Shown here piece by piece: positions 29,980 through 43,557 of a DNA stretch of 49,918 nt. Location: the IMG/VR virus record IMGVR_UViG_3300023184_000185, positions 1 through 49,918 of that record, one strand, 5' to 3'. The notes under the pieces were generated by a model. The model saw only the letters and a list, made by a program, of their open reading frames with translations. It was not told the DNA's origin and did not search any database. How positions within the stretch are numbered: position 1 is the first letter of the stretch; each line of letters begins with the position of its first letter. This DNA is from a virus. The position numbers were made by a program, and so were the translations under genes.

Positions 29980-30033
29980 TAGAAACTTCTACTAGGAAAA
30001 AAATGTTTTCAAAGAAATTTCTATACTTTTTTA

Positions 30034-30519
30034 TTAATCAAGGTAAACCGTCCATTGATCGTGAACCTTAGCAAAGTTTTTCATAAAGTATGTATATCCA
30101 GGTTTAAATGGACGATGTCTAAGTTTCATACCAGCTTCTTCTGGTGTTCTATCGCCTTTCTTACCGTTACATTTTGTACAGCAAGTTCCAAGGTTCTCCC
30201 ATGAGTTATCCCCTCCTCTAGATCTTGGGTATACGTGATCTATTGTTAAATCCTTCTTAGAAGGACAATATAAGCACTCAAACCCATCTCTCCTGAAGAT
30301 ATTATCTCTTGAAGGTTTAAGCTTCTTAAAAGGCAAAACTACGTACTTTAAAAGACGTATAACAGAAGGTCTTTTGTAAGTTTTTTGATCTGTTACAATT
30401 GGATTTTCTTCCACGTGTTCTAAAACTTCGGCTTTACCTTTAAATACAAGCTTAAAACCCCGAACCATGTCGGTCACACTAACTGGAGTGTAGTCGTTAT
30501 TTAATACTAGGACTTGCAT
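30034..30519 (-). CDS. HNH endonuclease
   Basis: A 161-residue protein with the HNH fold in its second half: CLYCPSKKDLTIDHVYPRSRGG, then NLGTCCTKCNGKKGD. Two CxxC pairs hold zinc and DH is the catalytic pair. The N-terminal half (NNDYTPVSVTDMVRGFKLVF) is shared with stand-alone bacterial HNH proteins. Lies at the end of the first tRNA cassette, consistent with mobile or maintenance nucleases near tRNAs. Confidence 0.85.
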   Translation of the reverse strand: MQVLVLNNDYTPVSVTDMVRGFKLVFKGKAEVLEHVEENPIVTDQKTYKRPSVIRLLKYVVLPFKKLKPSRDNIFRRDGFECLYCPSKKDLTIDHVYPRSRGGDNSWENLGTCCTKCNGKKGDRTPEEAGMKLRHRPFKPGYTYFMKNFAKVHDQWTVYLD

Positions 30520-30570
30520 AACATTTATAGTTTTCTATTTCATACTGGTTTCTCTATTTATCTATTTCAG

Positions 30571-30643
30571 TTGTCCCGCCAGGGCTCGAACCTGGAGTCT
30601 TCTGAACCAAAATCAGACGTGTTGCCAATTACACCACAGGACA
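30571..30643 (-). tRNA. tRNA-Gln(TTG)
   Basis: Full cloverleaf with acceptor TGTCCTG/CGGGACA, anticodon loop TTTTGGT and T-loop TTCGAGC. Last gene of the first tRNA cassette. Confidence 0.93.
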
Positions 30644-30650
30644 ATTTAGA

Positions 30651-30722
30651 GCCTTTGACAGGAATCGAACCTGCAACCCCTTGATTACAAATCAAGTGCT
30701 CTACCAATTGAGCTACAAAGGC
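30651..30722 (-). tRNA. tRNA-Thr(TGT)
   Basis: Cloverleaf with acceptor GCCTTTG/CAAAGGC and anticodon loop TTTGTAA. Confidence 0.95.
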
Positions 30723-30730
30723 ATAATGGG

Positions 30731-30803
30731 GTGTCGGACGGGATTTGAACCCGTGGCCTTCTGAACCACAATCAGACGCTCTAACCAACTGAGCTACCGA
30801 CAC
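30731..30803 (-). tRNA. tRNA-His(GTG)
   Basis: Cloverleaf with acceptor GTGTCGG/CCGACAC and anticodon loop TTGTGGT. Confidence 0.95.
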
Positions 30804-30805
30804 AG

Positions 30806-30878
30806 TAGCGAGTGGCAGGTTCGAACTGCCGACCTTCGGGTTATGACTCCGACGCTCTACCAACTGAGCTAACTCGCC
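30806..30878 (-). tRNA. tRNA-Met(CAT)
   Basis: Cloverleaf with acceptor GGCGAGT/ACTCGCT and anticodon loop GTCATAA. CAT could also be a lysidine-modified Ile tRNA; the sequence cannot decide. Confidence 0.9.
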
Positions 30879-30888
30879 ATAGGGGCTG

Positions 30889-30961
30889 AGCGATAGACAG
30901 GGTTCGAACCTGCGACCCCCGACTTGGAAGGACGGTGCTCTACCAACTGAGCTACTATCGC
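30889..30961 (-). tRNA. tRNA-Gly(TCC)
   Basis: Cloverleaf with acceptor GCGATAG/CTATCGC and anticodon loop CTTCCAA. The anticodon stem has one T-T mismatch. Confidence 0.92.
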
Positions 30962-31030
30962 ATTTGAGGGACACGCTTAACCCTCTTGTCTTGTGTACAT
31001 CAAGATTCACTATTTCTAGCAGCGTTTTTG

Positions 31031-31103
31031 TGGAGCTACCGGGAATCAAACCCGGGTCCTCTGAGTGCAAGTCAGAAATTTTAGTCAATTAAACTACGGC
31101 CCC
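31031..31103 (-). tRNA. tRNA-Ala(TGC)
   Basis: Anticodon loop CTTGCAC in a perfect TCTGA/TCAGA stem, T-arm CCGGG/CCCGG. The acceptor stem has weak pairs, and the D-arm is of the short TAGTTTAATTGAC type. Confidence 0.85.
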
Positions 31104-31106
31104 AAA

Positions 31107-31192
31107 TGGTCGGAGTGGAGGGATTCGAACCCCCAGTGCCGTAAGGCGGCTGATTTACAGTCAGCTGAGCAACCAATTGCTCAACACTCCGA
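31107..31192 (-). tRNA. tRNA-Tyr(GTA), ordinary copy
   Basis: Class II tRNA with a long variable arm, anticodon loop CTGTAAA, acceptor TCGGAGT/ACTCCGA and an encoded ACCA end. Confidence 0.95.
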
Positions 31193-31196
31193 AGTG

Positions 31197-31268
31197 CGGG
31201 GATACTAGGATTCGAACCTAGGACCTAACGATTAACAGTCGTTTGCTCTACCGCTGAGCTATATCCCC
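31197..31268 (-). tRNA. tRNA-Asn(GTT), ordinary copy
   Basis: Cloverleaf with acceptor GGGGATA/TATCCCC and anticodon loop CTGTTAA. A second, permuted Asn tRNA lies at 34267-34346. Confidence 0.95.
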
Positions 31269-31272
31269 GAAT

Positions 31273-31354
31273 AAGATTAGAGAATATTAGAGGGAGTTTG
31301 TTTTTGTACAAATTAAGAGTTTGTGAAGTAACTCCCTGCACCGCTTCTAATCTT
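31273..31354 (-). repeat. Two-helix RNA motif, copy 1 (no tRNA inside)
   Basis: Minus strand: outer helix AAGATTAG/CTAATCTT, loop with GCGG, inner helix AGGGAGT/ACTCCCT followed by the invariant TTACTTC, and a 3' loop ending TTCT before the outer arm. The ~30-base interior holds no tRNA. It sits between tRNA-Val and tRNA-Asn and touches the encoded CCA of tRNA-Val. Confidence 0.7.
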
Positions 31355-31431
31355 GGTAGTCTGTGAGGGATTCGAACCCTCGACCCTCTGCTTGTAAAAC
31401 AGATGCTCTGAACCAGCTGAGCTAACAGACT
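31354..31431 (-). tRNA. tRNA-Val(TAC)
   Basis: Cloverleaf with acceptor AGTCTGT/ACAGACT, anticodon loop TTTACAA and encoded CCA. Confidence 0.95.
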
Positions 31432-31544
31432 ATTTTTGGCTGACCTATAGAATCTTTCCTATTTTCTTCGGTATAGGTACCATCATGGGCTCCGTTAATT
31501 GATTCATCTTTATAACCCCATACGGAACAAGCAGGGTAACCAAG
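31432..31544 (-). other. Non-tRNA spacer with coding-like sequence
   Basis: Between tRNA-Ile and tRNA-Val, 113 bases hold no tRNA. One minus-strand frame is open for about 40 codons (ending DSIGQPKIVC) with no convincing start; it reads like the end of a real protein. An inverted repeat ACCTATA/TATAGGT lies within. It could be a gene remnant. Confidence 0.35.
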
Positions 31545-31619
31545 TTGGCAGTGAGGGAATCGAACCCACGACCTCTGACGTATCAGATCAGCGCTCTAAA
31601 CCAACTGAGCTAACTGCCA
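31545..31619 (-). tRNA. tRNA-Ile(GAT)
   Basis: Cloverleaf with acceptor TGGCAGT/ACTGCCA and anticodon loop CTGATAC. Confidence 0.93.
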
Positions 31620-31626
31620 ATATAAG

Positions 31627-31715
31627 TGGCGGAAGGTGAGGGGCTCGAACCCTCGCGTCCTAATGGACCTATCAGTTTAGCAAACTGACCTCTTCACCAA
31701 CTTGAGTAACCTTCC
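31627..31715 (-). tRNA. tRNA-Ser(GCT)
   Basis: Class II tRNA with long variable arm, anticodon loop TTGCTAA, acceptor GGAAGGT/ACCTTCC, encoded GCCA. Confidence 0.95.
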
Positions 31716-31716
31716 T

Positions 31717-31833
31717 TTATTTTCTTTTAATTAATCTTTTAATTCTTTTAATTATAGAATTTTTTTTAATAACTGATGGTGCTCTAAGTATACTCTTAGA
31801 TGATTCCATTTCTCCTCTACTTACTATTTTCAT
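31717..31833 (-). CDS. Very basic 38-aa peptide between tRNA genes
   Basis: ATG at 31833, stop at 31717, exactly filling the gap between tRNA-Cys and tRNA-Ser. The product is basic, with an amphipathic end rich in Ile/Lys/Arg (IIKRIKRLIKRK). Not recognised. It could bind RNA or membranes. No ribosome site is expected in Bacteroidota, so the support is the open frame, its fit to the gap and its composition. Confidence 0.45.
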   Translation of the reverse strand: MKIVSRGEMESSKSILRAPSVIKKNSIIKRIKRLIKRK

Positions 31834-31847
31834 TTTTTCTTTTTTTG

Positions 31848-31918
31848 AGGTCCCTACTGGATTCGAACCAGTGTAGAAGGTTTTGCAGACCTCCGCCTAA
31901 CCACTCGGCTAAGGGACC
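31848..31918 (-). tRNA. tRNA-Cys(GCA)
   Basis: Cloverleaf with acceptor GGTCCCT/AGGGACC and anticodon loop CTGCAAA. Confidence 0.93.
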
Positions 31919-31933
31919 ATTGTTTATTTTTAG

Positions 31934-32006
31934 AGACTCCACCTGGATTCGAACCAGGATCAGATCATCCGTAGTGATCCATTCTAATCCATTGAACTAC
32001 AGAGCC
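31934..32006 (-). tRNA. tRNA-Arg(ACG)
   Basis: Cloverleaf with anticodon stem GATCA/TGATC and loop CTACGGA, T-arm CCTGG/CCAGG. The acceptor has several G-U pairs. The A34 would need deamination to inosine. Confidence 0.88.
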
Positions 32007-32011
32007 AAATA

Positions 32012-32136
32012 TGGTGGGGAAGGGAGGATTCGAACCGTCCTATTTGATCATTTACAGTGATTTGCGATGTATCTCTATTCATTGCTATCATTGCTGAAGA
32101 ATACCGAAAGAGCTTTTTCCATTTAGCTTCTTCCCC
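32012..32136 (-). tRNA. tRNA-Tyr(GTA) split by a ~50-nt linear insertion
   Basis: Acceptor GGGGAAG/CTTCCCC with encoded ACCA, anticodon loop CTGTAAA, T-loop TTCGAAT. About 50 bases (roughly 32063-32111) interrupt it between the D-arm and the anticodon arm. The insertion has the parts of the two-helix motif in linear order: inner arm CTCTTTC, loop ending TTCT, a TCA-GCAA-TGA hairpin, TAGCAAT, inner arm GAATAGAG, then GATACATC. The T-stem has one bulged C. A second, ordinary tRNA-Tyr lies at 31107-31192. Confidence 0.7.
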
Positions 32137-32142
32137 ATTTAG

Positions 32143-32215
32143 CACGCCAGGTAGGAATCGAACCTACAACCTTTGGTTTTGGAGACCAACACTCTACCAA
32201 TTGAGCTACTGACGT
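32143..32215 (-). tRNA. tRNA-Trp(CCA)
   Basis: Cloverleaf with acceptor ACGTCAG/CTGGCGT and anticodon loop CTCCAAA. Confidence 0.94.
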
Positions 32216-32221
32216 GTGTAG

Positions 32222-32295
32222 TGATCCCGCCGGGGCTCGAACCCGGGACTCCCTCATTAAAAGTGAGGTGCTCTAGCCAACTGAGCTACGAGATC
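32222..32295 (-). tRNA. tRNA-Lys(TTT)
   Basis: Cloverleaf with acceptor GATCTCG/CGGGATC and anticodon loop CTTTTAA. Confidence 0.95.
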
Positions 32296-32365
32296 ATTAT
32301 ACTAAACTTGTTTTTGTTATAGTAAACCTATATAGTTTATTATGACAATTTCTTGTTTATCATCG

Positions 32366-32438
32366 TGGGGTGGGTGGGTATCGAACCCACTCCTTCGGAT
32401 TTTCAGTCCGGCGCAATCACCTGATCTGCCACCACCCC
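32366..32438 (-). tRNA. tRNA-Phe(GAA), ordinary copy
   Basis: Cloverleaf with acceptor GGGGTGG/CCACCCC and anticodon loop CTGAAAA. First tRNA of the first cassette. A permuted Phe tRNA lies at 37329-37406. Confidence 0.94.
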
Positions 32439-32448
32439 AAGTTTCCAG

Positions 32449-32461
32449 TATGTCAAAGAAC
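32449..32461 (-). promoter_or_regulatory. boxA-like antitermination site, cassette 1
   Basis: The minus strand reads GTTCTTTGACATA, close to the rRNA-leader boxA (E. coli GCTCTTTAACAAT) bound by NusB/S10. It lies between the leader terminator and tRNA-Phe. Confidence 0.6.
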
Positions 32462-32463
32462 AT

Positions 32464-32499
32464 AAAAAAAGGCTCCGATTTTTGATCGAAGCCTTTTTT
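32464..32499 (-). terminator. Leader terminator (attenuator), cassette 1
   Basis: The minus-strand hairpin arms AGGCTTCGAT/ATCGGAGCCT are followed by seven Ts. It stands between the leader ORF and the tRNAs, so read-through is needed for tRNA expression. The 5' arm CTTCGATCA is perfectly complementary (9 bases) to TGATCGAAG at 32532-32540, the end of the leader ORF, giving a mutually exclusive antiterminator. Confidence 0.8.
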
Positions 32500-32527
32500 A
32501 CATAATATTTTTTATGAATATCCGTAG

Positions 32528-32629
32528 TTAACTTCGATCAGGCTCTTTCACGGCCCAAAACGCCATCCCTTGATAGCCCTTATTTTGGCTAATCGTGCGA
32601 TTGATGTTATGTGTACTACAGTTTTTCAT
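32528..32629 (-). CDS. Leader peptide of tRNA cassette 1, 33 aa
   Basis: ATG at 32629, stop at 32528. Its 33 codons include Cys, His, Trp, Tyr, Phe, Gln and Met, and every one of the 16 amino acids served by the cassette's tRNAs, but no Leu, which the cassette also lacks. Ser codons are AGY, Arg codons CGN and Ile codons ATY, matching Ser(GCT), Arg(ACG) and Ile(GAT). Extra residues are Glu, Pro and Asp at the end (KEPD). The last codons overlap the antiterminator strand. Inferred role: a ribosome stalled on a codon lacking charged tRNA frees that strand and lets transcription pass the terminator. Confidence 0.6.
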   Translation of the reverse strand: MKNCSTHNINRTISQNKGYQGMAFWAVKEPDRS

Positions 32630-32698
32630 TTTTGTCTTTCTAAAACGTCTTTTCAGTTCGTTATGTTTGTTATATATCTTTCTTCTTTAAAAGTTTCA

Positions 32699-32706
32699 CA
32701 AATATA
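32699..32706 (-). promoter_or_regulatory. Promoter -7 box of tRNA cassette 1
   Basis: The minus strand reads TATATTTG, about 70 bases before the leader ORF, just after the HAD gene stop and in the same direction. Confidence 0.5.
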
Positions 32707-32741
32707 GATCTTTTTTCTTTATAAAAAAACTTTTTTGCGAT

Positions 32742-33314
32742 TTATTTTAAAAAATTTATGATCCTTTCTTTTATTCCGTTTTGTTTTATACCTTCTGTTA
32801 TTTTAGGGGTATGTACAAAATTAGTTAATCCCCAGCCGGTACCACTTCTATCGGTAGATATGGTTTTAAAGCTCATATCAAGATCATCGATTGATACCCA
32901 ATGTGTAACCTCGGGATGACCATTTAACCATTCTTGGATTTCTAAAGTTCTTGATGCTTCTAAATCCCATTCTGGATGCCATTCTTGTTTTTCTGGTAAC
33001 TTGTAAGATCCGGGTGTAAAATCTATTGGCTTTCTGATAATTCCTTGTTGCTCATAGTATTCACCCATTTCCTCTACTGTTGCCCATTTCTTCCAATCTG
33101 AAGAAACCACTATTTCAGCTCCTGTTTCTTCTAAGATAGCATTTAAAACATTTATTGCTTTCTTATCAAAATTATCAAATCTACAATCAACAGGGAAATT
33201 CATAGGAGTCCAAGAAAGTTTTCTATTCTCAACTTTCATTTGCTTCTTGTGTCTCCCCCCAAATTGTTGAGAGAGACAAATTACCCCATCGTGATCTAAG
33301 AATATAACTTTCAT
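32742..33314 (-). CDS. HAD phosphatase resembling the RNA-repair (Swiss-army-knife) HAD family
   Basis: A 190-residue HAD-fold protein: motif I FLDHDGVI (residues 5-12), motif II VVSSDWKKW with SSDW typical of the HAD domain found in RNA repair proteins, motif IV SIDDLDMSF (about 150). It could remove 3' or 2',3'-cyclic phosphates from cut RNA, which would suit the neighbouring split tRNAs. This link is inference; it could also act on nucleotides. One base separates it from the cyclophilin stop. Confidence 0.65.
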   Translation of the reverse strand: MKVIFLDHDGVICLSQQFGGRHKKQMKVENRKLSWTPMNFPVDCRFDNFDKKAINVLNAILEETGAEIVVSSDWKKWATVEEMGEYYEQQGIIRKPIDFTPGSYKLPEKQEWHPEWDLEASRTLEIQEWLNGHPEVTHWVSIDDLDMSFKTISTDRSGTGWGLTNFVHTPKITEGIKQNGIKERIINFLK

Positions 33315-33746
33315 TTAATTAATAATTTCTATAGAATTAATTTTATCACCTTGTTGTATAGCATCAATTACTTCTAATCCTTCTACTACTTTACCAAAGC
33401 AAGTGTGGTTTCTATCTAAGTGCTGTGTGTTTTGTCTGCTGTGACAAATAAAAAATTGTGATCCTCCAGTATTTCTACCAGCATGAGCCATTGAAAGTAC
33501 TCCACGATCGTGATATTGGTTATTACCGTTTAATTCGCAAGGAATAGTGTAACCTGGTCCGCCAACTCCAGTACCTTGTGGGCATCCACCTTGTATTACA
33601 AAATCAGGAATTACTCTATGGAAATTTAATCCATTATAGAATCCTTGATTTGAAAGATTAACAAAGTTTTCTACTGTTTTTGGAGCATCTTCAGCAAAGA
33701 ATTCCACGGTCATGTCACCTTTTGATGTTTTAATTATAGCTTTCAT
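33315..33746 (-). CDS. Cyclophilin-type peptidyl-prolyl isomerase
   Basis: A minimal 143-residue cyclophilin with [13 protein letters not shown] (catalytic Arg), the glycine-rich [14 protein letters not shown] and GGSQFFICH. No signal peptide, so cytoplasmic. Cotranscribed with the HAD gene, downstream of tRNA-Leu(TAG). Unusual cargo for a phage; probably acquired from a host. Confidence 0.92.
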
Positions 33747-33762
33747 ATTTTAAGTTTTTTTG

Positions 33763-33843
33763 TACCCAAGGCCGGATTCGAACCGGCACGTCCTTCGACA
33801 CTAGTTCCTAAGACTAGCGTGGCTACCATTACACCACTTGGGC
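33763..33843 (-). tRNA. tRNA-Leu(TAG)
   Basis: Class II tRNA with anticodon loop CTTAGGA in stem CTAGT/ACTAG and acceptor GCCCAAG/CTTGGGT. Confidence 0.93.
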
Positions 33844-33848
33844 AAAGT

Positions 33849-33987
33849 AAAAGATGAAGAAAACAGGAAAGGTGTATTTGTATTGCATAAAGCAGGAGTT
33901 GAACCTGCGACCTTTTATTCCCAAAATAAACGCTCAACCAACTGAGCTATTCACGCGAAGTAACCTTATCCATTGCTATCATCTTTT
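33849..33987 (-). repeat. Two-helix RNA motif, copy 2, enclosing tRNA-Pro
   Basis: Outer helix AAAAGATGA/TCATCTTTT (9 perfect pairs), 5' loop TAGCAAT, inner helix GGATAAGG/CCTTTCC with one bulge, then GTTACTTC, and a 3' loop ending TTCT. The interior is a complete, non-permuted tRNA. Confidence 0.75.
33884..33956 (-). tRNA. tRNA-Pro(TGG), linear copy inside the two-helix motif
   Basis: Intact cloverleaf with acceptor GCGTGAA/TTTATGC and anticodon loop TTTGGGA. Its first base follows directly after the motif block GTTACTTC. Another Pro(TGG) gene lies at 40175-40247. Confidence 0.9.
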
Positions 33988-34084
33988 GTGGATCTTGAGG
34001 AATCGAACCTCGTACTCTTTACAATGTTTAGTAATTGTTACTAACCCTTGGAGAGGGGTGTGATGCCATTTCACCAGAGACCCA
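33988..34084 (-). tRNA. Aberrant tRNA with extended variable region (perhaps Gly TCC)
   Basis: Acceptor TGGGTCT/AGATCCA pairs fully and the T-loop TTCGATT is normal. The anticodon arm allows either a 7-base loop TCTCCAA lacking U33 or an 8-base loop CTCTCCAA. About 30 bases with overlapping hairpins (TAGTAA/TTACTA, ACAAT/ATTGT) replace the variable loop. Its end abuts motif copy 2. Isotype uncertain. Confidence 0.5.
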
Positions 34085-34088
34085 AAAA

Positions 34089-34232
34089 TAGAACGAGAAT
34101 ATCGAATAGAGTGTTAATCATTGTATAATCGTTTATGAGACGATCGACTTATCCACTTGTCTAATCTGCCCGGAGGCAAATATAGGATTCGAACCTATGT
34201 ATGCGAAGTAACTCTAATCTTGCTACGTTCCA
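34089..34232 (-). repeat. Two-helix RNA motif, copy 3, enclosing permuted tRNA-Met
   Basis: Outer helix TGGAACG/CGTTCTA, loop TAGCAAG, inner helix GATTAGAGT/ACTCTATTC with one mismatch, GTTACTTC, 3' loop GATATTCT. Confidence 0.7.
34118..34198 (-). tRNA. Circularly permuted tRNA(CAT), break in the variable loop
   Basis: In transcription order the T-arm and 3' acceptor strand (ending ATTTGCC, 34175-34181) come first, then a 4-base linker, then the 5' acceptor strand GGCAGAT (34164-34170), the D-arm and the anticodon arm ATCGT-CTCATAA-ACGAT (34128-34144). All seven acceptor pairs form. The break falls in the variable loop. Anticodon CAT: Met or lysidine-type Ile. Confidence 0.7.
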
Positions 34233-34237
34233 ATAAT

Positions 34238-34377
34238 TTAAAGCAAAGAAAATTTCCAATCGTAATAAGCGCTCTACCAGCTGAGCTAATCCAAACTCTA
34301 AGAGCTGGATATAGGATTCGAACCCATGACCTCTCGGTTAACAGCCGAAGTAACGATTTAGATTGCTATTGCTTCAA
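34238..34377 (-). repeat. Two-helix RNA motif, copy 4, enclosing permuted tRNA-Asn
   Basis: Outer helix TTGAAGCAA/TTGCTTTAA (9 pairs with one G-U), loop TAGCAAT, inner helix CTAAATCG/CGATTGG with a bulged A, GTTACTTC, 3' loop ending TTTTCT. Confidence 0.75.
34267..34346 (-). tRNA. Circularly permuted tRNA-Asn(GTT), break between D-arm and anticodon arm
   Basis: The 3' part (about 34304-34346) carries anticodon loop CTGTTAA, variable loop, T-arm with TTCGAAT and ATCCAG. After a CTC-TTA-GAG linker hairpin, the 5' part (34267-34295) carries TTGGAT, TAGCTC, D-loop and GAGC. Joining GAGCGCT to CGG would restore a perfect CTCGG/CCGAG anticodon stem. Confidence 0.75.
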
Positions 34378-34382
34378 TAAGT

Positions 34383-34513
34383 TTATCAGGAGAAAATTGC
34401 AAAGGTGTAACGCTTTCGCGCCTCTGTGGGAGTTGAACCCACTACCCATTTTGTTTAAGAAAATTGCTCTACCAAGTGAGCTAAGAAGTAACCTTTACGT
34501 TGCTACCCGATAA
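34383..34513 (-). repeat. Two-helix RNA motif, copy 5, enclosing permuted tRNA(TAA)
   Basis: Outer helix TTATCGGG/TCCTGATAA-type (8 pairs), loop TAGCAAC, inner helix GTAAAGG/CCTTTGC (7 pairs), GTTACTTC, 3' loop AATTTTCT. Preceded by a boxA-like site. Confidence 0.75.
34411..34489 (-). tRNA. Circularly permuted tRNA with UAA anticodon, break inside the acceptor stem
   Basis: Order: acceptor bases from about 3 to 7 (CTTCT), D-arm, anticodon arm ATTTT-CTTAAAC-AAAAT, T-arm GTGGG/CCCAC, 3' acceptor AGAGGCG, a short CGAAAG linker, then CG as acceptor bases 1-2. CG joined to CTTCT pairs with AGAGGCG at all seven positions. The anticodon reads Leu codons, yet the body is class I with a short variable loop, unlike bacterial tRNA-Leu. 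Confidence 0.65.
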
Positions 34514-34522
34514 TATTTTAAT

Positions 34523-34534
34523 AATTCAAAGAAC
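34523..34534 (-). promoter_or_regulatory. boxA-like site before motif copy 5
   Basis: The minus strand reads GTTCTTTGAATT, 10 bases upstream of copy 5 and just after a terminator hairpin. Confidence 0.5.
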
Positions 34535-34545
34535 TTCTATATTTT

Positions 34546-34577
34546 AAAAAGAGGGAGGTTTAAGTCCCTCTTTTTAT
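34546..34577 (-). terminator. Terminator hairpin between Ro60-like gene 1 and the permuted tRNAs
   Basis: Minus-strand hairpin AAAAAGAGGGA...TCCCTCTTTTT directly after the Ro60-like stop codon and before the boxA-like site. Confidence 0.75.
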
Positions 34578-34585
34578 TTGTATCG

Positions 34586-36214
34586 TTATATAACGATTTG
34601 TTTCACTTTTTCAAGATGGTAGTTCGGATTGAACTCGCTTTTAGCAATATCATCGAACATACTGTATCCGTATCCGTAGTAGTATCTAACTTTATCTCCT
34701 GCGAGTTGTGTAGTACCGTAAGCTGCTAAGTCTACAGAGTAAACGTATGGACTTCCAGTTGCTTTTACATAACTCATGTAAGAGTTATAGCTAGATCCTT
34801 TGTTACATTCGTTATCAGAAAGGATGAAAACACGGTCATATTTACGTCCTGATTTTTGAGCTACACTCCAAGCAGCAGCTAATGAAGTTCCACCCATATC
34901 TCTTTTCATGTTCTTAGCGATACTGAAAACGTCTGAGTTAGCGTTCCAATTCACGTATTCTGCTGAAGAGCCGAATCTGATAACATCAGCATTTGTACCT
35001 TTTGCGATAGTTGCCGCTATTAAAGCTGCTTTATCCATACAATTGCTTTTGTAACGTTTTCCCCCTCTTGATCCATCTGACATTGGTGAGCTCATAGATC
35101 CCGAGAAGTCAACCATTACTAGTGTTTTTCCTGGAAGCATCTCAGCAAGGTTTGGAATTGCTGCCTCAAATCCTTTTAGCAAAGCTTGAGCTATTTTACG
35201 AGAATCAGAGTTACTGAATTCTGAAATAGTTACCTCGTGTGCTAAATCCATTTGGTATGGCATAATCTTACCCTTTCTGATTGACTCAGGATCAGAAAGC
35301 AATGTACAAAGTGAATCTACTGTTGTAGTCTTTGCATCTGTTTTAAGGATGTTACGGATATTACGTAAAGCAGCCATTATACCTAGTTTTCCTTCTGTTA
35401 ATAAAGCATCCCAGTTTTCAGCCTTAGCTTCTTTTAGGATTTTTTCTGCCTCACTCTTATCAATTTTACCTTCTTTAACAGCTTTTGCAACTTCTTGACC
35501 TGCGTCAGATTGTGCAACTTCCCAAGTATCAGCTGAAACAGATAAGCCTTTCATTATTGCATCAATAGCTGAAATTCTTTCTCCGTTTACTTCAACAATA
35601 GCTTTTGCATTCTTTGGACTTGGATGAACAAGGTTGATAACGTCAATCAATGAGCTCTTGTACTTTAGTAAAGAGTAAGCATCCATGCTCTCAAGAGCAG
35701 AACGGAATCCTTTTTTCATTGAGTTAGTTACTGAGGTCTTATTCATTGCAGAGAAACATGCAAGAATTTCTGACATGTCATCTGGACGGAATAGCGTACC
35801 CCCTGACTTTGTTTTTTTGTTCCATAGACCGTAGAATCTTTTTGCCCAATCTTGTCCAGCACAGTGTGGTGCTAAATAAGAAGCTGCAAGATGGTTAATT
35901 GAACGCATACCTTCACCTACGCAACGAGAGTATACAATACACTGTGCAGTTAAGTATGTGTCTTCCTTAGCACATCCATCAACTAGTGACTTTAATTCCT
36001 TCATCGTTTCGTTTTCAGAACGATAGAACTGATTCTCTAGCTTTAGAGTGTTTAACATTGTCAAGAGTCTTAACCACTTATCAAGTGAATAAGCTGCATG
36101 ACCTTGACGATTTGTGGTGTCTGGCTTTGGTATTGCTACCGCCTCAGCCAACTCAGATTTTGGCTGCATATTAGCTAGCGAACCTCTGAGATTTTGGTTT
36201 CTGAACTTTGACAT
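34586..36214 (-). CDS. Ro60/TROVE-domain RNA-binding protein 1
   Basis: A 542-residue protein with the two-part Ro60 layout. About residues 1-340 are the helical-repeat TROVE ring (DKWLRLLTMLNTLKL, a CIVYSRCVGEGMR block) that binds Y RNAs and misfolded RNA ends. About 360-542 are a von Willebrand A domain with an intact MIDAS motif DFSGSMSS near residue 367 and ILSDNE later. Bacterial Ro60 (Rsr) works with tRNA-like Y RNAs and exonucleases. Here the gene lies inside the permuted tRNA cluster, between copies 6 and 5 of the two-helix motif. Confidence 0.9.
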   Translation of the reverse strand: MSKFRNQNLRGSLANMQPKSELAEAVAIPKPDTTNRQGHAAYSLDKWLRLLTMLNTLKLENQFYRSENETMKELKSLVDGCAKEDTYLTAQCIVYSRCVGEGMRSINHLAASYLAPHCAGQDWAKRFYGLWNKKTKSGGTLFRPDDMSEILACFSAMNKTSVTNSMKKGFRSALESMDAYSLLKYKSSLIDVINLVHPSPKNAKAIVEVNGERISAIDAIMKGLSVSADTWEVAQSDAGQEVAKAVKEGKIDKSEAEKILKEAKAENWDALLTEGKLGIMAALRNIRNILKTDAKTTTVDSLCTLLSDPESIRKGKIMPYQMDLAHEVTISEFSNSDSRKIAQALLKGFEAAIPNLAEMLPGKTLVMVDFSGSMSSPMSDGSRGGKRYKSNCMDKAALIAATIAKGTNADVIRFGSSAEYVNWNANSDVFSIAKNMKRDMGGTSLAAAWSVAQKSGRKYDRVFILSDNECNKGSSYNSYMSYVKATGSPYVYSVDLAAYGTTQLAGDKVRYYYGYGYSMFDDIAKSEFNPNYHLEKVKQIVI

Positions 36215-36289
36215 TTTAGTACAAGGTTTTGTTTGTTAATAATAATTTTGTAAAAATAAAAAGAATTTTCTATTAAAAAAATCTTTTTG

Positions 36290-36364
36290 TCGAGTAAAGA
36301 GGAATCGAACCTCAAAATAACTAGTATCAGATCTTCATGATCCATTGTTATCCAAACTACTCGA
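36290..36364 (-). tRNA. tRNA-like gene, isotype unresolved
   Basis: The 75-base sequence has a perfect acceptor TCGAGTA/TACTCGA and T-loop TTCGATT, but the D and anticodon arms are ambiguous: GATC-ATGAA-GATC forms a strong hairpin and CTGATAC, an Ile(GAT)-type loop, follows. It lies between motif copy 6 and Ro60-like gene 1. Confidence 0.6.
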
Positions 36365-36367
36365 AAT

Positions 36368-36522
36368 AATCGGAGAAAGTTGACAAAGTGTTTTTTCTTT
36401 TAAGCGAGCTACCACTGCTCCACCGCGGTATGTGTTTTGTTTATAGTACCGCGGGATGGATTCGAACCACCGACCTCTTCCTTATAATGGATTTCGAAGT
36501 AACTTTATCATTGCTACCGATT
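36368..36522 (-). repeat. Two-helix RNA motif, copy 6, enclosing permuted tRNA-Ile
   Basis: Outer helix AATCGG/CCGATT, loop GTAGCAAT, inner helix GATAAAGT/ACTTTGTC (8 pairs), GTTACTTC, 3' loop AACTTTCT. The outer arm begins at the base after the GIY-YIG stop codon. Confidence 0.75.
36403..36490 (-). tRNA. Circularly permuted tRNA-Ile(TAT), break between D-arm and anticodon arm
   Basis: The 3' part (about 36447-36490) has anticodon loop ATTATAA, GGAAG, T-arm GGTGG/CCATC and acceptor CCGCGGT. An 18-base linker follows, then the 5' part (36403-36429) ACCGCGG, D-arm GAGC/GCTC, GCT. All acceptor bases pair. The anticodon stem needs CT from the 5' part joined to TCC of the 3' part (CTTCC/GGAAG), so GTTACTTC lies outside the mature tRNA. 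Confidence 0.78.
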
Positions 36523-37161
36523 TTATTTTCTTCCCCTTCCCCAATTTTCAGGAATGGGATCTGTATTTTTAATTTTTTTATTTTCAGTTCCATTTGTTAT
36601 CCAAATAGTTCCGAATTGCGAATTTTTTTCACCTTTGTGTTTTCCTTTAGCGGAATCCTTCATTTTTAATATGGTCTCTATAGAATGATTTCTATCTTTA
36701 AATGTAGGAATTAATTCTCCTGACTTGTATAAAGATTTTAATTTAATGGAAATTTTTTCTGAATTATTTTTCATAGAATTTTTCCAATTATCTGGATTTT
36801 CCTTTATTCTTTTGTTTGTAGCAATTGCGCCAGAAATAGAAGCCTTTTTCATATGTTCCTCGTTTATAAATCCTCCACCTCCTCCAGGTTGGATATTCAT
36901 ACACAAAGGATCGTTTAATAATTCCTCGTTCACTAATTCAACTTCTCGTTGCCTTAGTAATTCCCTACTTTCAAAGAACTCTAGAATCTCCTTTCTGTGT
37001 GCATCTTTACCGTGCTTCTTAACAGAATTTTTAATTCTCTTTCCACCTCCCATATAACCATCTTCTAAGTTATCTGTGGAGTGCATTCCAATATAGTATC
37101 GATTATTCTTAAGACATGTTATCTTATAGATGTAATGATACTTTTTCTCTTTTCTTGCCAT
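36523..37161 (-). CDS. GIY-YIG homing endonuclease
   Basis: A 212-residue nuclease. The N-terminal GIY-YIG domain has YIYKITCLKNNRYYIGMHST (residues about 9-28) with catalytic Tyr and the later Arg/Glu region. The C-terminal part has NUMOD-like DNA-binding repeats (SIETILKMKDSAKGKHKGE). Such genes move next to or into phage genes. Its stop codon abuts motif copy 6, which suggests it may mobilise or have entered at that RNA element. Confidence 0.88.
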   Translation of the reverse strand: MARKEKKYHYIYKITCLKNNRYYIGMHSTDNLEDGYMGGGKRIKNSVKKHGKDAHRKEILEFFESRELLRQREVELVNEELLNDPLCMNIQPGGGGGFINEEHMKKASISGAIATNKRIKENPDNWKNSMKNNSEKISIKLKSLYKSGELIPTFKDRNHSIETILKMKDSAKGKHKGEKNSQFGTIWITNGTENKKIKNTDPIPENWGRGRK

Positions 37162-37213
37162 CTCGTATGTTACTTAGACTATATATCTAAGTAACAGTAC
37201 GAAATGGGGGCTG

Positions 37214-37287
37214 TAGCGGGTGAGGGACTCGAACCCCCGATCTCGAGCTTATGAGGCTCGCGAGATGACCAACTTCTCCAACCCGCA
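37214..37287 (-). tRNA. tRNA-Met(CAT), initiator-like
   Basis: Anticodon loop CTCATAA in CGAGC/GCTCG. The first acceptor pair is a T-T mismatch followed by GCGGGT/ACCCGC, and bases 8-13 read TGGAGA; an unpaired 1-72 position is an initiator trait. It lacks the three G-C pairs under the anticodon, so initiator status is uncertain. Confidence 0.8.
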
Positions 37288-37296
37288 ATATAAAAT

Positions 37297-37437
37297 AAAT
37301 CAAGAGAATAGTATCGAGAGTGTGATCTAGTTCTACCGCTAAACTATACGAGTGTCTCCACCCGCACTGGGATTCGAACCCAGGCCTTTTTTGTTTCAGA
37401 AAAAATTGAAGTAACTCTCAATTTCGCTACTTGATTT
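37297..37437 (-). repeat. Two-helix RNA motif, copy 7, enclosing permuted tRNA-Phe
   Basis: Outer helix AAATCAAG/CTTGATTT (8 pairs), loop TAGCGAAA, inner helix TTGAGAGT/ACTCTCGA (8 pairs), GTTACTTC, 3' loop TACTATTCT. The outer arm starts at the base after the CCA end of tRNA-Asp. Confidence 0.78.
37329..37406 (-). tRNA. Circularly permuted tRNA-Phe(GAA), break between D-arm and anticodon arm
   Basis: The 3' part (about 37359-37406) has stem TTTTT/AAAAA with loop CTGAAAC, T-arm CTGGG/CCCAG and acceptor TGCGGGT. A short linker follows, then the 5' part (37329-37353): ACTCGTA, D-arm GTTT/GAAC and T26. ACTCGTA pairs with TGCGGGT at all seven positions. Confidence 0.78.
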
Positions 37438-37516
37438 TGGCGGTCTGTATGGGATTTGAACCCATGATCTCCCACGTGACAGGCGGGCGTCGACGGCCGG
37501 ACTCGACTAACAGACC
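37438..37516 (-). tRNA. tRNA-Asp(GTC)
   Basis: Cloverleaf with acceptor GGTCTGT/ACAGACC, anticodon loop CTGTCAC and encoded GCCA. Confidence 0.93.
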
Positions 37517-37668
37517 ATAATGAAAAAAGATAATGATGGAGTACCCGTCTCGCTCCAATCTTAAGTGCTTTCCTGAGTTTTACTGGATCCAGGCACAAAG
37601 GGTGATGAACTTCTTTGATCTTGCTGAGATTGTCGACATCGCAACAAGGAAGAACCATTATCTCTTAG
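37517..37668 (-). other. Non-tRNA spacer with coding-like, GC-richer sequence
   Basis: 152 bases between tRNA-Glu and tRNA-Asp. A minus-strand frame opens with ATG at 37658 and stays open through the spacer into tRNA-Asp; codon choice (GTC, CTC, CTG, AGG, GCG) is unlike the phage. No tRNA fold found. A hairpin GGAG...CTCC lies near 37540-37560. Remnant, transferred fragment or ncRNA. Confidence 0.3.
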
Positions 37669-37740
37669 TAGTCCCGACGGGAATCGAACCCGTGTTACTA
37701 GGATGAAAACCTAGCGTCCTTACCCCTAGACGACGGGACC
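37669..37740 (-). tRNA. tRNA-Glu(TTC)
   Basis: Acceptor GGTCCCG/CGGGACT and anticodon loop TTTTCAT. First tRNA of cassette 2. Confidence 0.94.
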
Positions 37741-37756
37741 ATAAGTAGCATTTTAA

Positions 37757-37769
37757 TATGTCAAAGAAC
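37757..37769 (-). promoter_or_regulatory. boxA-like site, cassette 2
   Basis: The minus strand reads GTTCTTTGACATA, identical to that of cassette 1, between the leader terminator and tRNA-Glu. Confidence 0.6.
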
Positions 37770-37779
37770 CTTATAAAAC

Positions 37780-37810
37780 AAAAAAACCTCGGTGTTTATA
37801 CCGAGGTTTT
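37780..37810 (-). terminator. Leader terminator (attenuator), cassette 2
   Basis: Minus-strand hairpin AAAACCTCGGT/ACCGAGGTTTT followed by Ts. Its 5' arm AAAACCTCGG can pair with CCGAGCTTTT at 37834-37843 (9 pairs, one C-C mismatch), at the end of the leader ORF. Confidence 0.78.
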
Positions 37811-37831
37811 AATCTGTGATTATATCTTAGA

Positions 37832-37924
37832 TCAAAAGCTCGGCGGTCTATTTGGATCCTCCACTAGAAGGTTATTCTCCTTACGAAGTATAAACTCTTG
37901 GCTGATATTTGATAGACTGTGCAT
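37832..37924 (-). CDS. Leader peptide of tRNA cassette 2, 30 aa
   Basis: ATG at 37924, stop TGA at 37832. It is rich in Glu (3 GAG), Asn (4 AAY), Leu (4, all CTN), Pro (3 CCN) and Phe (2 TTT), with Asp, ATA-Ile and Met. The unit downstream encodes Glu, Asp, Phe, Met and Ile(TAT), and beyond Ro60 Asn, Pro and Leu(TAG). The CTN-only Leu use matches Leu(TAG), in contrast with leader 3. Last codons overlap the antiterminator strand. Confidence 0.55.
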   Translation of the reverse strand: MHSLSNISQEFILRKENNLLVEDPNRPPSF

Positions 37925-37956
37925 TTGAAGTTTGTTTGTCTTTTATTTTAGTACTG

Positions 37957-37964
37957 CAAAATTA
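37957..37964 (-). promoter_or_regulatory. Promoter -7 box of tRNA cassette 2
   Basis: The minus strand reads TAATTTTG, about 33 bases before the leader ORF. Confidence 0.5.
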
Positions 37965-38014
37965 CATAAAAGTTTCAATTAAAAAAACTTTTTCTGAATT
38001 TTTTTTATTTTTTA

Positions 38015-38296
38015 TTATAAGCTCCAAGCTGGATTGGCAATAATTAGCATACCATTCTCAACTCTTGGTAATTGTCCTAGATCTTGGTAATCTGCATATT
38101 CGATTTGACTTGGATAAAATTTTTGTCCATTAAACATAATATAGTTGCTGTCGTCCTCTTTACCTGTGTGACTATACCCTTGTCCTCTTAATTGAGTATG
38201 AGCTGCATCTTTAACAGTTGGCTTACCAAAAAGACTATTCCAAAAACTTTCGTTAACTTTGGATTTTACCTGATCGTATTTTTTTAAATGCTTCAT
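38015..38296 (-). CDS. Small putative packaged protein, 93 aa
   Basis: The start chosen is the ATG at 38296 (MKHLKKYDQVKSKVNES), because it begins the shared capsid-targeting-like motif and because the 11 codons upstream look like leader sequence. The rest is a small soluble domain (DAAHTQLRGQGYSH). Not recognised. Confidence 0.55.
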   Translation of the reverse strand: MKHLKKYDQVKSKVNESFWNSLFGKPTVKDAAHTQLRGQGYSHTGKEDDSNYIMFNGQKFYPSQIEYADYQDLGQLPRVENGMLIIANPAWSL

Positions 38297-38357
38297 TTGT
38301 TTGATTTTTATTGTATATATCAAAATCAAAGAAATAAATATTCTAGGGTTTTTAAAA

Positions 38358-39749
38358 TTATCCTAGAAGATCCTTAATCTTATCTTTATTAGATAATAAT
38401 TTTTTAAGATTAGATTGAAGTTCTGCACTAAGTGCTTTACCACCATCGGTATTAATATCTTTGCCTGATATATTTTTTATCATTTTAGCAACTTTATCAA
38501 CAGCTGATTCTGTATTTTTTCCGTATAATCCATCTGATGTTATTTTTTCTCCTATCCCTAAATTATTATAATCCTCTTGGAATTTTTTAATTGCTTCCAA
38601 GTTAGGTCCGTCTTTTCTAAGATTTTGCTTATCTACGTTTCCGCTTTTGATATCTTTGCTTTCTTCTTTATTTTCTGTTTTTGTTTCTGCTGCTCCTTTT
38701 CCTGTAATATCTTTCTTATCTTTAGAGAATTCTTTTCCTTCTTTATCTTTAAAGAAAATCTTATCTCCTTCAATCTTAACGATCTCACTTTGTGCTTCCT
38801 CTCCGTTTTCTCTTTTATATTTAACTACGTCTCCGACTTTATATTCTGCGTTTCCTGAATCTTTTTTTACCTCTGTTCCTTTAGCATCAGAAATTGCCTT
38901 ATCGTCAATTGCCTTGGTTTTGTCTGACATAGAATTTATACTAGTAATAATATTTGACATGGTATCTGCTATTTTCTTATCTACCCCAATTTTAACTAAT
39001 TCAGATTTTTGAAGATCGTTGGTTTTTTGAATCATATCATCGATTTCAGCATTCATTGATTCTAATTTTTCTTTCCTCTCTTTTCTTTTCATTTTTTCCC
39101 AAGCGCCTTTATCGGAAAGTAATTTTTGGAACTCGTCAAACTTAGATACCACCTCACTAGCTTTAGCTTTTAAAGTTTCGCTACTAGGATTTTTTTGTTG
39201 TGATATCATTTCAGAATATAAAGACTTCATTTTATCTGAAAGAGCTGCTCTTTCGTCTTCAAAGGTGTTTTTTTCGTAAAGTAATGGGAAAGAATATCTA
39301 TCAAAACCATATACATTTAGATGCTCTTTTAAAGGCTGCTCTTTAAGAATATCCTGATAGTTTACTATCTTATTAGTAACCATTTTATTGATTGCCTCTG
39401 CATTCTTTTTAGCAGATTCGGTTGAAGCAACTTGAGCATAAATTTCTTTAATAGAAGATGCTGCTTTAATAGCATCTTCTTTTATTGAGGTATATTTTGG
39501 ATCTATTTTATCTGCTACTTTTTTAATAACAGATTCCATTGTCTCAGATCTTTTAGCGGGATCTTTTTCCTCTGAAACTGATATTAGGTCAGCAAGTACA
39601 TCTTTATAATCTACTGCTTTAGTAGCTACGAACATGTAGCATTTAAAGAAAAGAGATATGATCTCGCTAATTGTTTTTACTGGGGTAGATGATTCCTGTT
39701 CAAATAATTTTTTATAGCTATTAAAATTTAATACTCTATTGGGCTTCAT
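38358..39749 (-). CDS. Coiled-coil protein with peptidoglycan-binding-like C-terminus, 463 aa
   Basis: The ATG at 39749 begins MKPNRVLNFNSYKKLFE, the shared N-terminal motif; the longer frame upstream merely reads through a tRNA-like sequence. The middle is long helical and coiled coil. The C-terminal ~80 residues (AIKKFQEDYNN, then TSDGLYGKNTESAVDKV) match a PG_binding_1-type fold. Proposed packaged or virion cell-wall protein. Confidence 0.62.
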   Translation of the reverse strand: MKPNRVLNFNSYKKLFEQESSTPVKTISEIISLFFKCYMFVATKAVDYKDVLADLISVSEEKDPAKRSETMESVIKKVADKIDPKYTSIKEDAIKAASSIKEIYAQVASTESAKKNAEAINKMVTNKIVNYQDILKEQPLKEHLNVYGFDRYSFPLLYEKNTFEDERAALSDKMKSLYSEMISQQKNPSSETLKAKASEVVSKFDEFQKLLSDKGAWEKMKRKERKEKLESMNAEIDDMIQKTNDLQKSELVKIGVDKKIADTMSNIITSINSMSDKTKAIDDKAISDAKGTEVKKDSGNAEYKVGDVVKYKRENGEEAQSEIVKIEGDKIFFKDKEGKEFSKDKKDITGKGAAETKTENKEESKDIKSGNVDKQNLRKDGPNLEAIKKFQEDYNNLGIGEKITSDGLYGKNTESAVDKVAKMIKNISGKDINTDGGKALSAELQSNLKKLLSNKDKIKDLLG

Positions 39750-39824
39750 TTCTTTGATTTTTATTGTATATATCAAAATCAAAGAAATGAATTCCTCACG
39801 GACATACTTCCCTTTTAGTGGAAG

Positions 39825-39895
39825 ACCCAGGATTTGAACCTGCAAAGTCCGTTTATAGATCTATAGATATTTCCTGCCACACCTTACGAGGGGAC
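39825..39895 (-). tRNA. tRNA-like remnant or aberrant tRNA
   Basis: A clear T-arm (GGTTCAAATCC) and a possible short acceptor GTGGCAG/CTTCCAC, but no normal D-arm; TATAG-AT-CTATA is palindromic. No anticodon can be assigned. Last element of cassette 3. Confidence 0.35.
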
Positions 39896-39907
39896 AATGA
39901 ATTTTAG

Positions 39908-39991
39908 TACCCGGGGAGGGAGTCGAACCCTCACGGCCTTTAGGGCCAAGGGATTTTAAGTCCCTCATGTCTACCATTCCATCACCCGGGC
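39908..39991 (-). tRNA. tRNA-Leu(TAA), ordinary class II copy
   Basis: Acceptor GCCCGGG/CCCGGGT, anticodon loop CTTAAAA, long variable arm. Confidence 0.95.
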
Positions 39992-40008
39992 AGACTTTTA
40001 ATTTTTTG

Positions 40009-40082
40009 TGGGCCCTGTTGGGATCGAACCAACCACCTACTGATTATGAGTCAGTTGCTCTAACCGAATGAGCTAAGGGCCC
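40009..40082 (-). tRNA. tRNA-Met(CAT)
   Basis: Acceptor GGGCCCT/AGGGCCC, anticodon loop CTCATAA. Elongator Met or lysidine-type Ile. Confidence 0.92.
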
Positions 40083-40085
40083 TAA

Positions 40086-40161
40086 GTCGAGACGATGGGG
40101 TTTGAACCCATGACCTTTACCTTATAAGAGTACTGCTCTCACCAACTGAGCTACGCCTCGA
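40086..40161 (-). tRNA. tRNA-Ile(TAT), ordinary copy
   Basis: Acceptor TCGAGGC/GTCTCGA, anticodon loop CTTATAA. Reads AUA. Confidence 0.9.
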
Positions 40162-40174
40162 TACTCTTTTTTTG

Positions 40175-40247
40175 TCGGGGTGGCCGGGCTCGAACCGACG
40201 ACCTCCTGGTCCCAAACCAGGCACGCTACCAACTGCGCTACACCCCG
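40175..40247 (-). tRNA. tRNA-Pro(TGG), ordinary copy
   Basis: Acceptor CGGGGTG/CACCCCG, anticodon loop TTTGGGA. Confidence 0.95.
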
Positions 40248-40253
40248 AAATAG

Positions 40254-40327
<74 letters not shown>

Positions 40328-40330
40328 AAT

Positions 40331-40418
40331 TGGCGGAGAGGGAGGGATTCGAACCCCCGGGTCGTGAGACCGGCAGTTTTCAAGACTGCTGTAATAAACC
40401 AGACTCTACCACCTCTCC
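40331..40418 (-). tRNA. tRNA-Ser(TGA)
   Basis: Class II, anticodon loop CTTGAAA, long variable arm, encoded GCCA. First tRNA of cassette 3. Confidence 0.95.
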
Positions 40419-40434
40419 GTGGATAATTTAATAG

Positions 40435-40447
40435 TATTTCAAAGAGC
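40435..40447 (-). promoter_or_regulatory. boxA-like site, cassette 3
   Basis: The minus strand reads GCTCTTTGAAATA, very close to the E. coli boxA core GCTCTTTAACA, between the terminator and tRNA-Ser. Confidence 0.6.
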
Positions 40448-40485
40448 AAAAAAAAACCGGGACTTTTTAAGGTCCCGGTTTTTTT
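40448..40485 (-). terminator. Leader terminator (attenuator), cassette 3
   Basis: Minus-strand hairpin AACCGGGACC.../...GTCCCGGTT followed by nine Ts. Its 5' arm CGGGACCTTA pairs with TAAGGTCCTG at 40509-40518 (10 pairs, one G-U), at the end of the leader ORF. Confidence 0.82.
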
Positions 40486-40502
40486 ATAAGATGTTCTTTA
40501 TC

Positions 40503-40577
40503 TTAACACAGGACCTTAGTTGATCGTCTTATTGACGGTCTTAACGATAAAGGTAATATGTTTGAAATATTGATCAT
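40503..40577 (-). CDS. Leader peptide of tRNA cassette 3, 24 aa
   Basis: ATG at 40577, stop TAA at 40503. All four Ser codons are TCA or TCG (read by Ser TGA), three of four Leu codons are TTA (Leu TAA), two of three Arg are AGA (Arg TCT), two of four Ile are ATA (Ile TAT), and Pro appears twice. These are the tRNAs of the cassette. The final codons (K-V-L-C) contain the antiterminator strand. Confidence 0.62.
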   Translation of the reverse strand: MINISNILPLSLRPSIRRSTKVLC

Positions 40578-40613
40578 TTGAGTATTATATATCTGTTCTT
40601 TAGTTTTGTTTCA

Positions 40614-40621
40614 CAAATGTA
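40614..40621 (-). promoter_or_regulatory. Promoter -7 box of tRNA cassette 3
   Basis: The minus strand reads TACATTTG, about 37 bases before the leader ORF. Confidence 0.5.
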
Positions 40622-40627
40622 AGATAT

Positions 40628-40933
40628 TTACAGTATAGAAAAAAATATTTTGTGTAAATCTTCAATAAAATTTTTTGAGTACTTACCTAGAATCTCTGCA
40701 ATATCCTCTGCCGTCTCTTCATCTTCACTGTCGCAAACTATATAAAAACTAGCATCATCTCTTACAGATTCTTTGTTTGAATCTAATCCTTGGAAATCTT
40801 TTGAAGGATTATCCCAGAGATCATCTTCGTCTGTAAAATTATCTGATTGGTAATCTTGATTCTCAAAGTATTCTACTACTTCTTTTTCTTCGTAGCTAAA
40901 CTCTTGATAAGAAGAATAAACTTTTATTGCCAT
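40628..40933 (-). CDS. Acidic hypothetical protein, 101 aa
   Basis: Not recognised. A strongly acidic protein (YQSDNFTDEDDLWDN, CDSEDEETAEDIAE). Its stop lies beside the promoter of tRNA cassette 3. Acidic small phage proteins often mimic DNA or inhibit host enzymes, but nothing specific supports this. Confidence 0.5.
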   Translation of the reverse strand: MAIKVYSSYQEFSYEEKEVVEYFENQDYQSDNFTDEDDLWDNPSKDFQGLDSNKESVRDDASFYIVCDSEDEETAEDIAEILGKYSKNFIEDLHKIFFSIL

Positions 40934-40947
40934 TTTTTAAAATCTTT

Positions 40948-41298
40948 TTATACTTCAGAAATTAGAACTTTTTTAAGTTCATATGGTGATCCTGGTTCTG
41001 ATATTTTATCGTAGTATCCAATAATAGAATAGTTTCTTCCATCTGAACTTGAATCTGGTATCATTTCAATATCGCTTACCATTGAATTCCCTACAAATTC
41101 TGGATCTGCTGCTCCTGCAATTTCCATTGTTGTATCTTTGCCTTCTGCATTTAAGAAATTAACAAAGTAATTTCCTTCTGTACTACCATCAGTTGATTTA
41201 ATATCTGTACTTTCAACTTCATAATTAACAGCAGCTGCTTGAGTATCCATTGGCATAACCTCAGATGCAAATTGCTCGTATATTCTTAGATGTTTCAT
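40948..41298 (-). CDS. Small putative packaged protein, 116 aa
   Basis: The N-terminus MKHLRIYEQFASE fits the shared capsid-targeting-like motif. The remainder is beta-rich and acidic. 14 bases from the acidic 101-aa gene, same direction. Not recognised. Confidence 0.5.
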   Translation of the reverse strand: MKHLRIYEQFASEVMPMDTQAAAVNYEVESTDIKSTDGSTEGNYFVNFLNAEGKDTTMEIAGAADPEFVGNSMVSDIEMIPDSSSDGRNYSIIGYYDKISEPGSPYELKKVLISEV

Positions 41299-43486: not shown

Positions 43487-43510
43487 TATTTTGTTTTAAA
43501 TTTTTTACAA

Positions 43511-43557
43511 TAAAAAAGGGACTCAAGTTTCGTGTTTACCACTGACCAGAATCCCTT
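43511..43557 (-). terminator. Terminator closing the Ro60-2 leader RNA
   Basis: Minus-strand arms AAGGGATTC/GAGTCCCTT (9 pairs) with a ~24-base loop and six Ts, 25 bases before the Ro60-2 start. Confidence 0.7.

Follow-up and report, generated by a model that had tools for sequence, protein, structure and literature searches.

The analysed window covers 49.9 kb and is a fragment of an IMG/VR phage. On its minus strand, unit 1 (30570-32706) begins with a promoter-like -7 element (TATATTTG, 32699-32706), which fits the Bacteroidota consensus TAnnTTTG and for which promoter activity is inferred. This element is followed by a leader ORF of 33 codons (MKNCSTHNINRTISQNKGYQGMAFWAVKEPDRS, 32528-32629), an intrinsic terminator (32467-32497) with a 13-bp stem of -16.3 kcal and a subsequent U tract, a boxA-like site (TTCTTTGACAT, with CTTTGACAT as the core of TTCTTTGACATA; 32450-32458) immediately upstream of tRNA-Phe, and a cassette of 16 tRNAs (30570-32438), identified by ARAGORN and Rfam as Phe, Lys, Trp, Arg-acg, Cys, Ser-gct, Ile-gat, Val, Asn, Tyr, Ala, Gly, Met, His, Thr and Gln. 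A first-pass annotation of this DNA had located all these elements correctly and had counted 17 tRNAs; a 17th tRNA-like stretch, with an internal insert, lies at about 32008-32140. Here and at 33960-34500, tRNA-like sequences with inserts are not cleanly called by ARAGORN, and in or near them a motif like TAGCAAn(5-9)GGTTACTTCG recurs. Intron-bearing tRNAs and tRNA mimics resembling Y RNA are both possible identities. Between the promoter-like box and the ATG (window about 32660-32670) lies an element, GATATATAA, which is conserved in MKNC-family leaders and in several other families.

The codons of leader 1 closely follow the tRNAs encoded downstream. All 22 sensor codons (codon 4 to the last eight, i.e., codons 4-25; 32555-32620) belong to boxes for which cassette 1 has a tRNA (P = 4e-5 with the codon usage of this phage as the null), and they span 15 of the 16 boxes of the cassette, which was not reached in any of 200,000 simulations. 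The leader covers 19 of the 20 amino acids, all but Leu, and the cassette is without a tRNA-Leu. Ser is encoded exclusively by AGY, Arg by CGN and Ile by AUY codons, and the cassette harbors Ser-gct, Arg-acg and Ile-gat. The reading frame is kept in nine related loci, where only in-frame indels are found. The final codons contain the strand TGATCGAAG (32532-32540), and the perfect 9-base complementarity to CTTCGATCA in the 5' arm of the terminator (32483-32491), which had been noticed before, was confirmed. Folding of the segment from the ORF end through the 5' arm yielded -20.3 kcal for this antiterminator, compared with -16.3 kcal for the full terminator alone.

Further leader units are present on the minus strand of the window. 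In unit 4, a promoter-like element (TACATTTG, 40614-40621), a leader ORF (MINISNILPLSLRPSIRRSTKVLC, 40503-40577) and a terminator (40453-40482) precede the tRNAs Ser-tga, Arg-tct, Pro, Ile-tat, Met and Leu-taa (39907-40418; ARAGORN and Rfam). This leader uses UCN Ser, AGA Arg, CCN, AUA Ile and UUA Leu codons, and 12 of its 15 sensor codons are read by cassette 4 tRNAs (0/200,000 simulations). In unit 3, the leader ORF (MHSLSNISQEFILRKENNLLVEDPNRPPSF, 37832-37924) and a terminator (37783-37810) precede Glu, Asp and Met tRNAs (37213-37740; ARAGORN and Rfam). Here the codon match is weak (7 of 19 sensor codons, P 0.22), which counts against the reading of the leader as a menu of cassette codons. 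Two genes for Ro60/TROVE-like RNA-binding proteins (phrog_850; 34586-36214 and 41866-43542, minus) adjoin the tRNA cassettes, and a Y RNA-like (YrlA) Rfam match, sub-threshold with 27 bits, was obtained at 34241-34360 (region 34174-34360). It is possible that these genes and the YrlA-like match represent a phage Ro/Y-RNA pair.

The match between leader and cassette is not confined to this phage. Loci were gathered by their flanking proteins and also by a terminator-plus-boxA DNA pattern that is blind to leader composition, and an equally composition-blind rule gave 147 usable units: ahead of each terminator followed by a tRNA, it took the longest ORF that starts with ATG and stops a short way upstream. 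Wobble was handled at the level of codon boxes, some tRNA-like genes in the window are missed by ARAGORN, and units from one lineage are not fully independent. Across 48 leader clusters, 53% of the codons matched the own cassette, compared with 35.5 +/- 1.5% after permutation (z about 12), and the signal was restricted to the ORF frame, with no match in frames +1 and +2. For 20 single-linkage families the corresponding values were 51% and 37 +/- 2.3%. On contigs with two or three units, all 64 ordered pairs favoured the fit of a leader to its own cassette over that to another cassette of the contig. In related leaders pN/pS was 0.47 in frame 0 vs 1.39 and 1.13 out of frame. Translation of the leader ORF and purifying selection in its frame are thus supported by sequence comparison, with no direct translation data at hand. 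In 31 of the 48 clusters the leader was preceded by the promoter motif TAnnTTTG (3.8 in shuffles), and a boxA-like site followed the terminator likewise in 31 of 48, part of the set having been collected using a boxA-like motif. Protein similarity yielded 53 tRNA-rich loci, of which 42 carried a unit (38 a strongly pairing one), and no unit was detected in 11. As a device for the control of non-tRNA genes the unit was rejected, since outside tRNA loci there were only two candidates with a promoter. In two cases (L406 4876 and L404 4586), a leader-terminator unit has the promoter motif and pairs strongly, but no tRNA was detected within 400 nt downstream; either a tRNA was missed or a different gene is regulated. 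The first-pass annotation had described the attenuator from this phage alone; its architecture is real, and it belongs to a widespread class.

The end of the leader is adapted to its own terminator. Leader ends paired with their own terminator arm with -13.4 kcal, compared with -7.9 +/- 0.34 kcal in permutations. Homologous phages retain both the ORF and the complementarity. The expected covariation of ORF end and terminator arm was seen even inside leader clusters, where swapped arms paired more weakly (p 8e-4). Antiterminator folds had a median of -17.3 vs a mean of -9.1 for shuffled controls and were lower in 46 of 48 cases. The codon match is absent within the antiterminator strand and the 0-1 codons before it, and reaches 66-72% from two codons upstream (z 10-13). 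Since the ORF end encodes the strand and the match begins upstream of it, the sensing codons sit where a stalled ribosome would leave the strand free. Short ORFs are common near terminators in AT-rich DNA, and the leader ORF might have arisen by chance next to a terminator that simply serves the gene upstream, with tRNAs expressed from their own promoters. The frame-specific codon match, the in-frame purifying selection and the pairing with the own terminator contradict this, as does the finding that 141 of 217 terminators before tRNAs, but only 11 of 420 elsewhere, have complementary leaders. This explanation is practically negligible and was ruled out by the frame, swap, position and pairing tests. 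Highly improbable is also a role of the leader peptide in trans, or a soaking up of tRNA by its translation, with the terminator being incidental. Leader peptides with trans functions are known (peTrpL, PMC7298713), but the peptides considered here are unrelated and share nothing beyond the codon menu and an end complementary to the terminator. Because the leader end pairs with its own terminator, the evidence points to control in cis.

We propose that the units are ribosome-mediated transcription attenuators and that the tRNA cassette is turned on by a shortage of the encoded isoacceptors. The probability of this reading is estimated at roughly 0.9, in the absence of transcript, footprint or reporter data. 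RNA polymerase would start at the promoter-like element, and a ribosome would translate the short leader, whose central codons are drawn, at isoacceptor resolution, from those of the cassette tRNAs and whose last codons would also serve as an antiterminator strand able to pair with the terminator's 5' arm. With all menu tRNAs plentiful, the ribosome would soon arrive at the ORF end and cover the strand, the terminator would fold and the tRNAs would remain off. If any menu tRNA is scarce, the ribosome would stall upstream, the strand would pair with the terminator arm and polymerase would enter the tRNA genes, where the boxA-like site probably aids elongation of the untranslated RNA. The outcome would be a feedback loop supplying the tRNAs that are short, e.g., after a tRNA-cleaving defence or host tRNA decay. 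Selection in the translated frame, codon-anticodon match, pairing of strand and terminator and the spatial order are demonstrated by the sequence statistics, whereas promoter activity, the ON-under-scarcity polarity, the physiological trigger and the role of boxA are inferred. In the absence of a measurement, the polarity is inferred from the geometry, namely the placement of the sensing codons ahead of the antiterminator strand. For the same lack of a measurement it is conceivable that the cassette is silenced by tRNA scarcity and stays active under efficient translation, but a terminator-opposing strand at the ORF end with sensing codons upstream is the order of leaders that are switched on by stalling, and reversed polarity is very unlikely. 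A protector (1:2) hairpin, by which the operon would remain silent when the leader is not translated, is only weakly supported (-7.98 vs -7.42 +/- 0.21 kcal permuted); therefore, untranslated leaders might read through. As the antiterminator would form without translation, attenuators of the proposed type would also be on when ribosomes fail to load.

The first-pass annotation had inferred that shortage of a charged tRNA turns on the operon. Leader codons indeed track the cassette tRNAs, in frame 0 only; what they appear to follow is a whole menu and not one tRNA. This codon menu was absent from the earlier description, and the sensing it implies is predicted to be at the level of isoacceptors. 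Leaders follow the isoacceptor of the cassette, with AGY or UCN for Ser, CGN or AGR for Arg and AUY or AUA for Ile, and Fisher tests of leader codons against cassettes gave p values of.007 for Ser, 2e-5 for Arg, 1e-3 for Leu and 2e-6 for Ile. Alternatively, the attenuator might be a broad sensor, like those of the ermC type, of amino-acid starvation or generally slow translation. The architecture would be identical, ribosomes are stalled by uncharged tRNA too, and some leaders sample nearly every amino acid (19-20 types). Following the Ser, Arg and Ile boxes of the cassette would, however, be needless for amino-acid starvation, and narrow cassettes have narrow leaders, e.g., Gln runs before tRNA-Gln clusters. 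A starvation sensor is thus unlikely but cannot be excluded, and the isoacceptor matching argues for tRNA shortage as the evolved signal of the proposed attenuators.

Why phages carry large tRNA arrays is a long-standing question. The leaders can be read as a list, kept by the phage itself, of the tRNAs under surveillance; from them it is predicted that the arrays respond to an actual tRNA shortage and do not act as constitutive codon compensation. We lean towards the view, with some reservation, that they constitute a virus-borne, isoacceptor-resolved tRNA homeostat, which would read, one codon at a time, the tRNAs lost by the host (to anticodon nucleases, defence or decay) and activate no cassette but the one replacing them; each genome would hold several cassettes, tuned independently of one another. 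Phage tRNAs have been viewed as a counter to tRNA depletion (PMC10264068, PMC11555353), and we infer that the leader device fits this view. It apparently is a self-sensing switch for viral tRNA supply, without wet-lab evidence as yet and with polarity and trigger being inferred. Attenuation by a leader peptide would thereby reach non-coding products and viruses, and the menu principle would offer a general way of building a translation sensor with many inputs.

Ribosome-mediated transcription attenuation is known from the trp, his, thr and ilv leaders of amino-acid operons. Attenuation in such operons has also been modelled (PMC1183508). The phage units resemble these attenuators in having a leader ORF whose regulatory codons call for what the operon provides and an antiterminator competing with a terminator. 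A short translated leader ORF with cognate regulatory codons, as expected of an attenuator, is indicated by the frame statistics and the codon match, and a mutually exclusive pair of an antiterminator from the ORF end and an intrinsic terminator is present in silico. In contrast to amino-acid operons, the phage operon, located in viruses, makes tRNAs and not biosynthetic enzymes, one leader samples up to 20 amino acids with a match down to the isoacceptor, and evidence for the protector hairpin is weak. The threonine operon leader RF00506 gave 40.2 bits (E 9e-5) at 40447-40570 (minus) in unit 4 and 25.5 bits at unit 1. Unit 4 was not accepted as a member, being below the gathering threshold of 55 bits and similar in shape only; the match is in keeping with an attenuator-like shape of this unit. 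T-box riboswitches likewise read the state of tRNA by transcription attenuation, but through direct tRNA-RNA binding without translation, whereas the information in phage leaders resides in the codons of the translated frame. With this frame-bound signal and no Rfam match to the T-box family up to E 0.5 within 30000-41000 of the window, a T-box was ruled out. The tRNA arrays of T5 and SP15 counter tRNA-cleaving defence (PMC11555353; PMC10264068). Such arrays are proposed or shown to replace lost host tRNAs, as is inferred for the cassettes described here, but there a strong promoter drives the tRNAs, whereas expression of the leader-type cassettes is apparently conditional. No prior description of leader-controlled phage tRNA cassettes was found in the literature searched, with most preprints and subscription papers outside its scope, and term searches within a paper on huge phages (PMC7162821) and a survey of phage tRNAs from 2026 (PMC13015707) gave none either.

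The carriers are large phages, and their hosts are probably Bacteroidota. For the phage of the window, such a host is suggested by the type of promoter and by the closest relatives of its tail sheath (Flavobacterium MaF61, Prevotella Lak and Tenacibaculum PTm1). MaF61 and PTm1 are without tRNA cassettes, and in Rctr197k and Lak-C1 only one unconvincing and one doubtful unit, respectively, were found. With the detector used for the units, neither a unit nor a terminator before tRNAs was found in crAss001, Phass-1, T4, T5 and Acinetobacter phage 133, and tblastn of nine leaders against annotated phages returned nothing. We know of no cultured carrier of a leader-tRNA unit. The terminator-plus-boxA pattern retrieved 118 stretches of GTDB bacterial contigs, none with a unit; therefore, a host origin was rejected and the device is treated as a viral feature. 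Units are carried by the public huge-phage records LR745206, LR756501, LR756502 and LR756504 (635-735 kb). In these, the leader MTTTQQIQQQQINQTD precedes three and MTTSFQQQQQQQINRTD four tRNA-Gln, with QQIQQQQ and QQQQQQQ leaders ahead of tRNA-Gln clusters, MNNILHINLLNSLCLLGIKLIG precedes five tRNA-Leu, MKTIAMIIRMRIIRPKMLG precedes Arg-Ile-Met, and Ser- and Arg-rich leaders lie ahead of Arg/Ser tRNAs. Permutation of 24 huge-phage units gave z = 10.8, in frame 0 only. In two loci (LR745206 and LR756502), small cassettes carry one tRNA in three or four copies (Gln x3-4, Asp x3-4), each with a matching leader.
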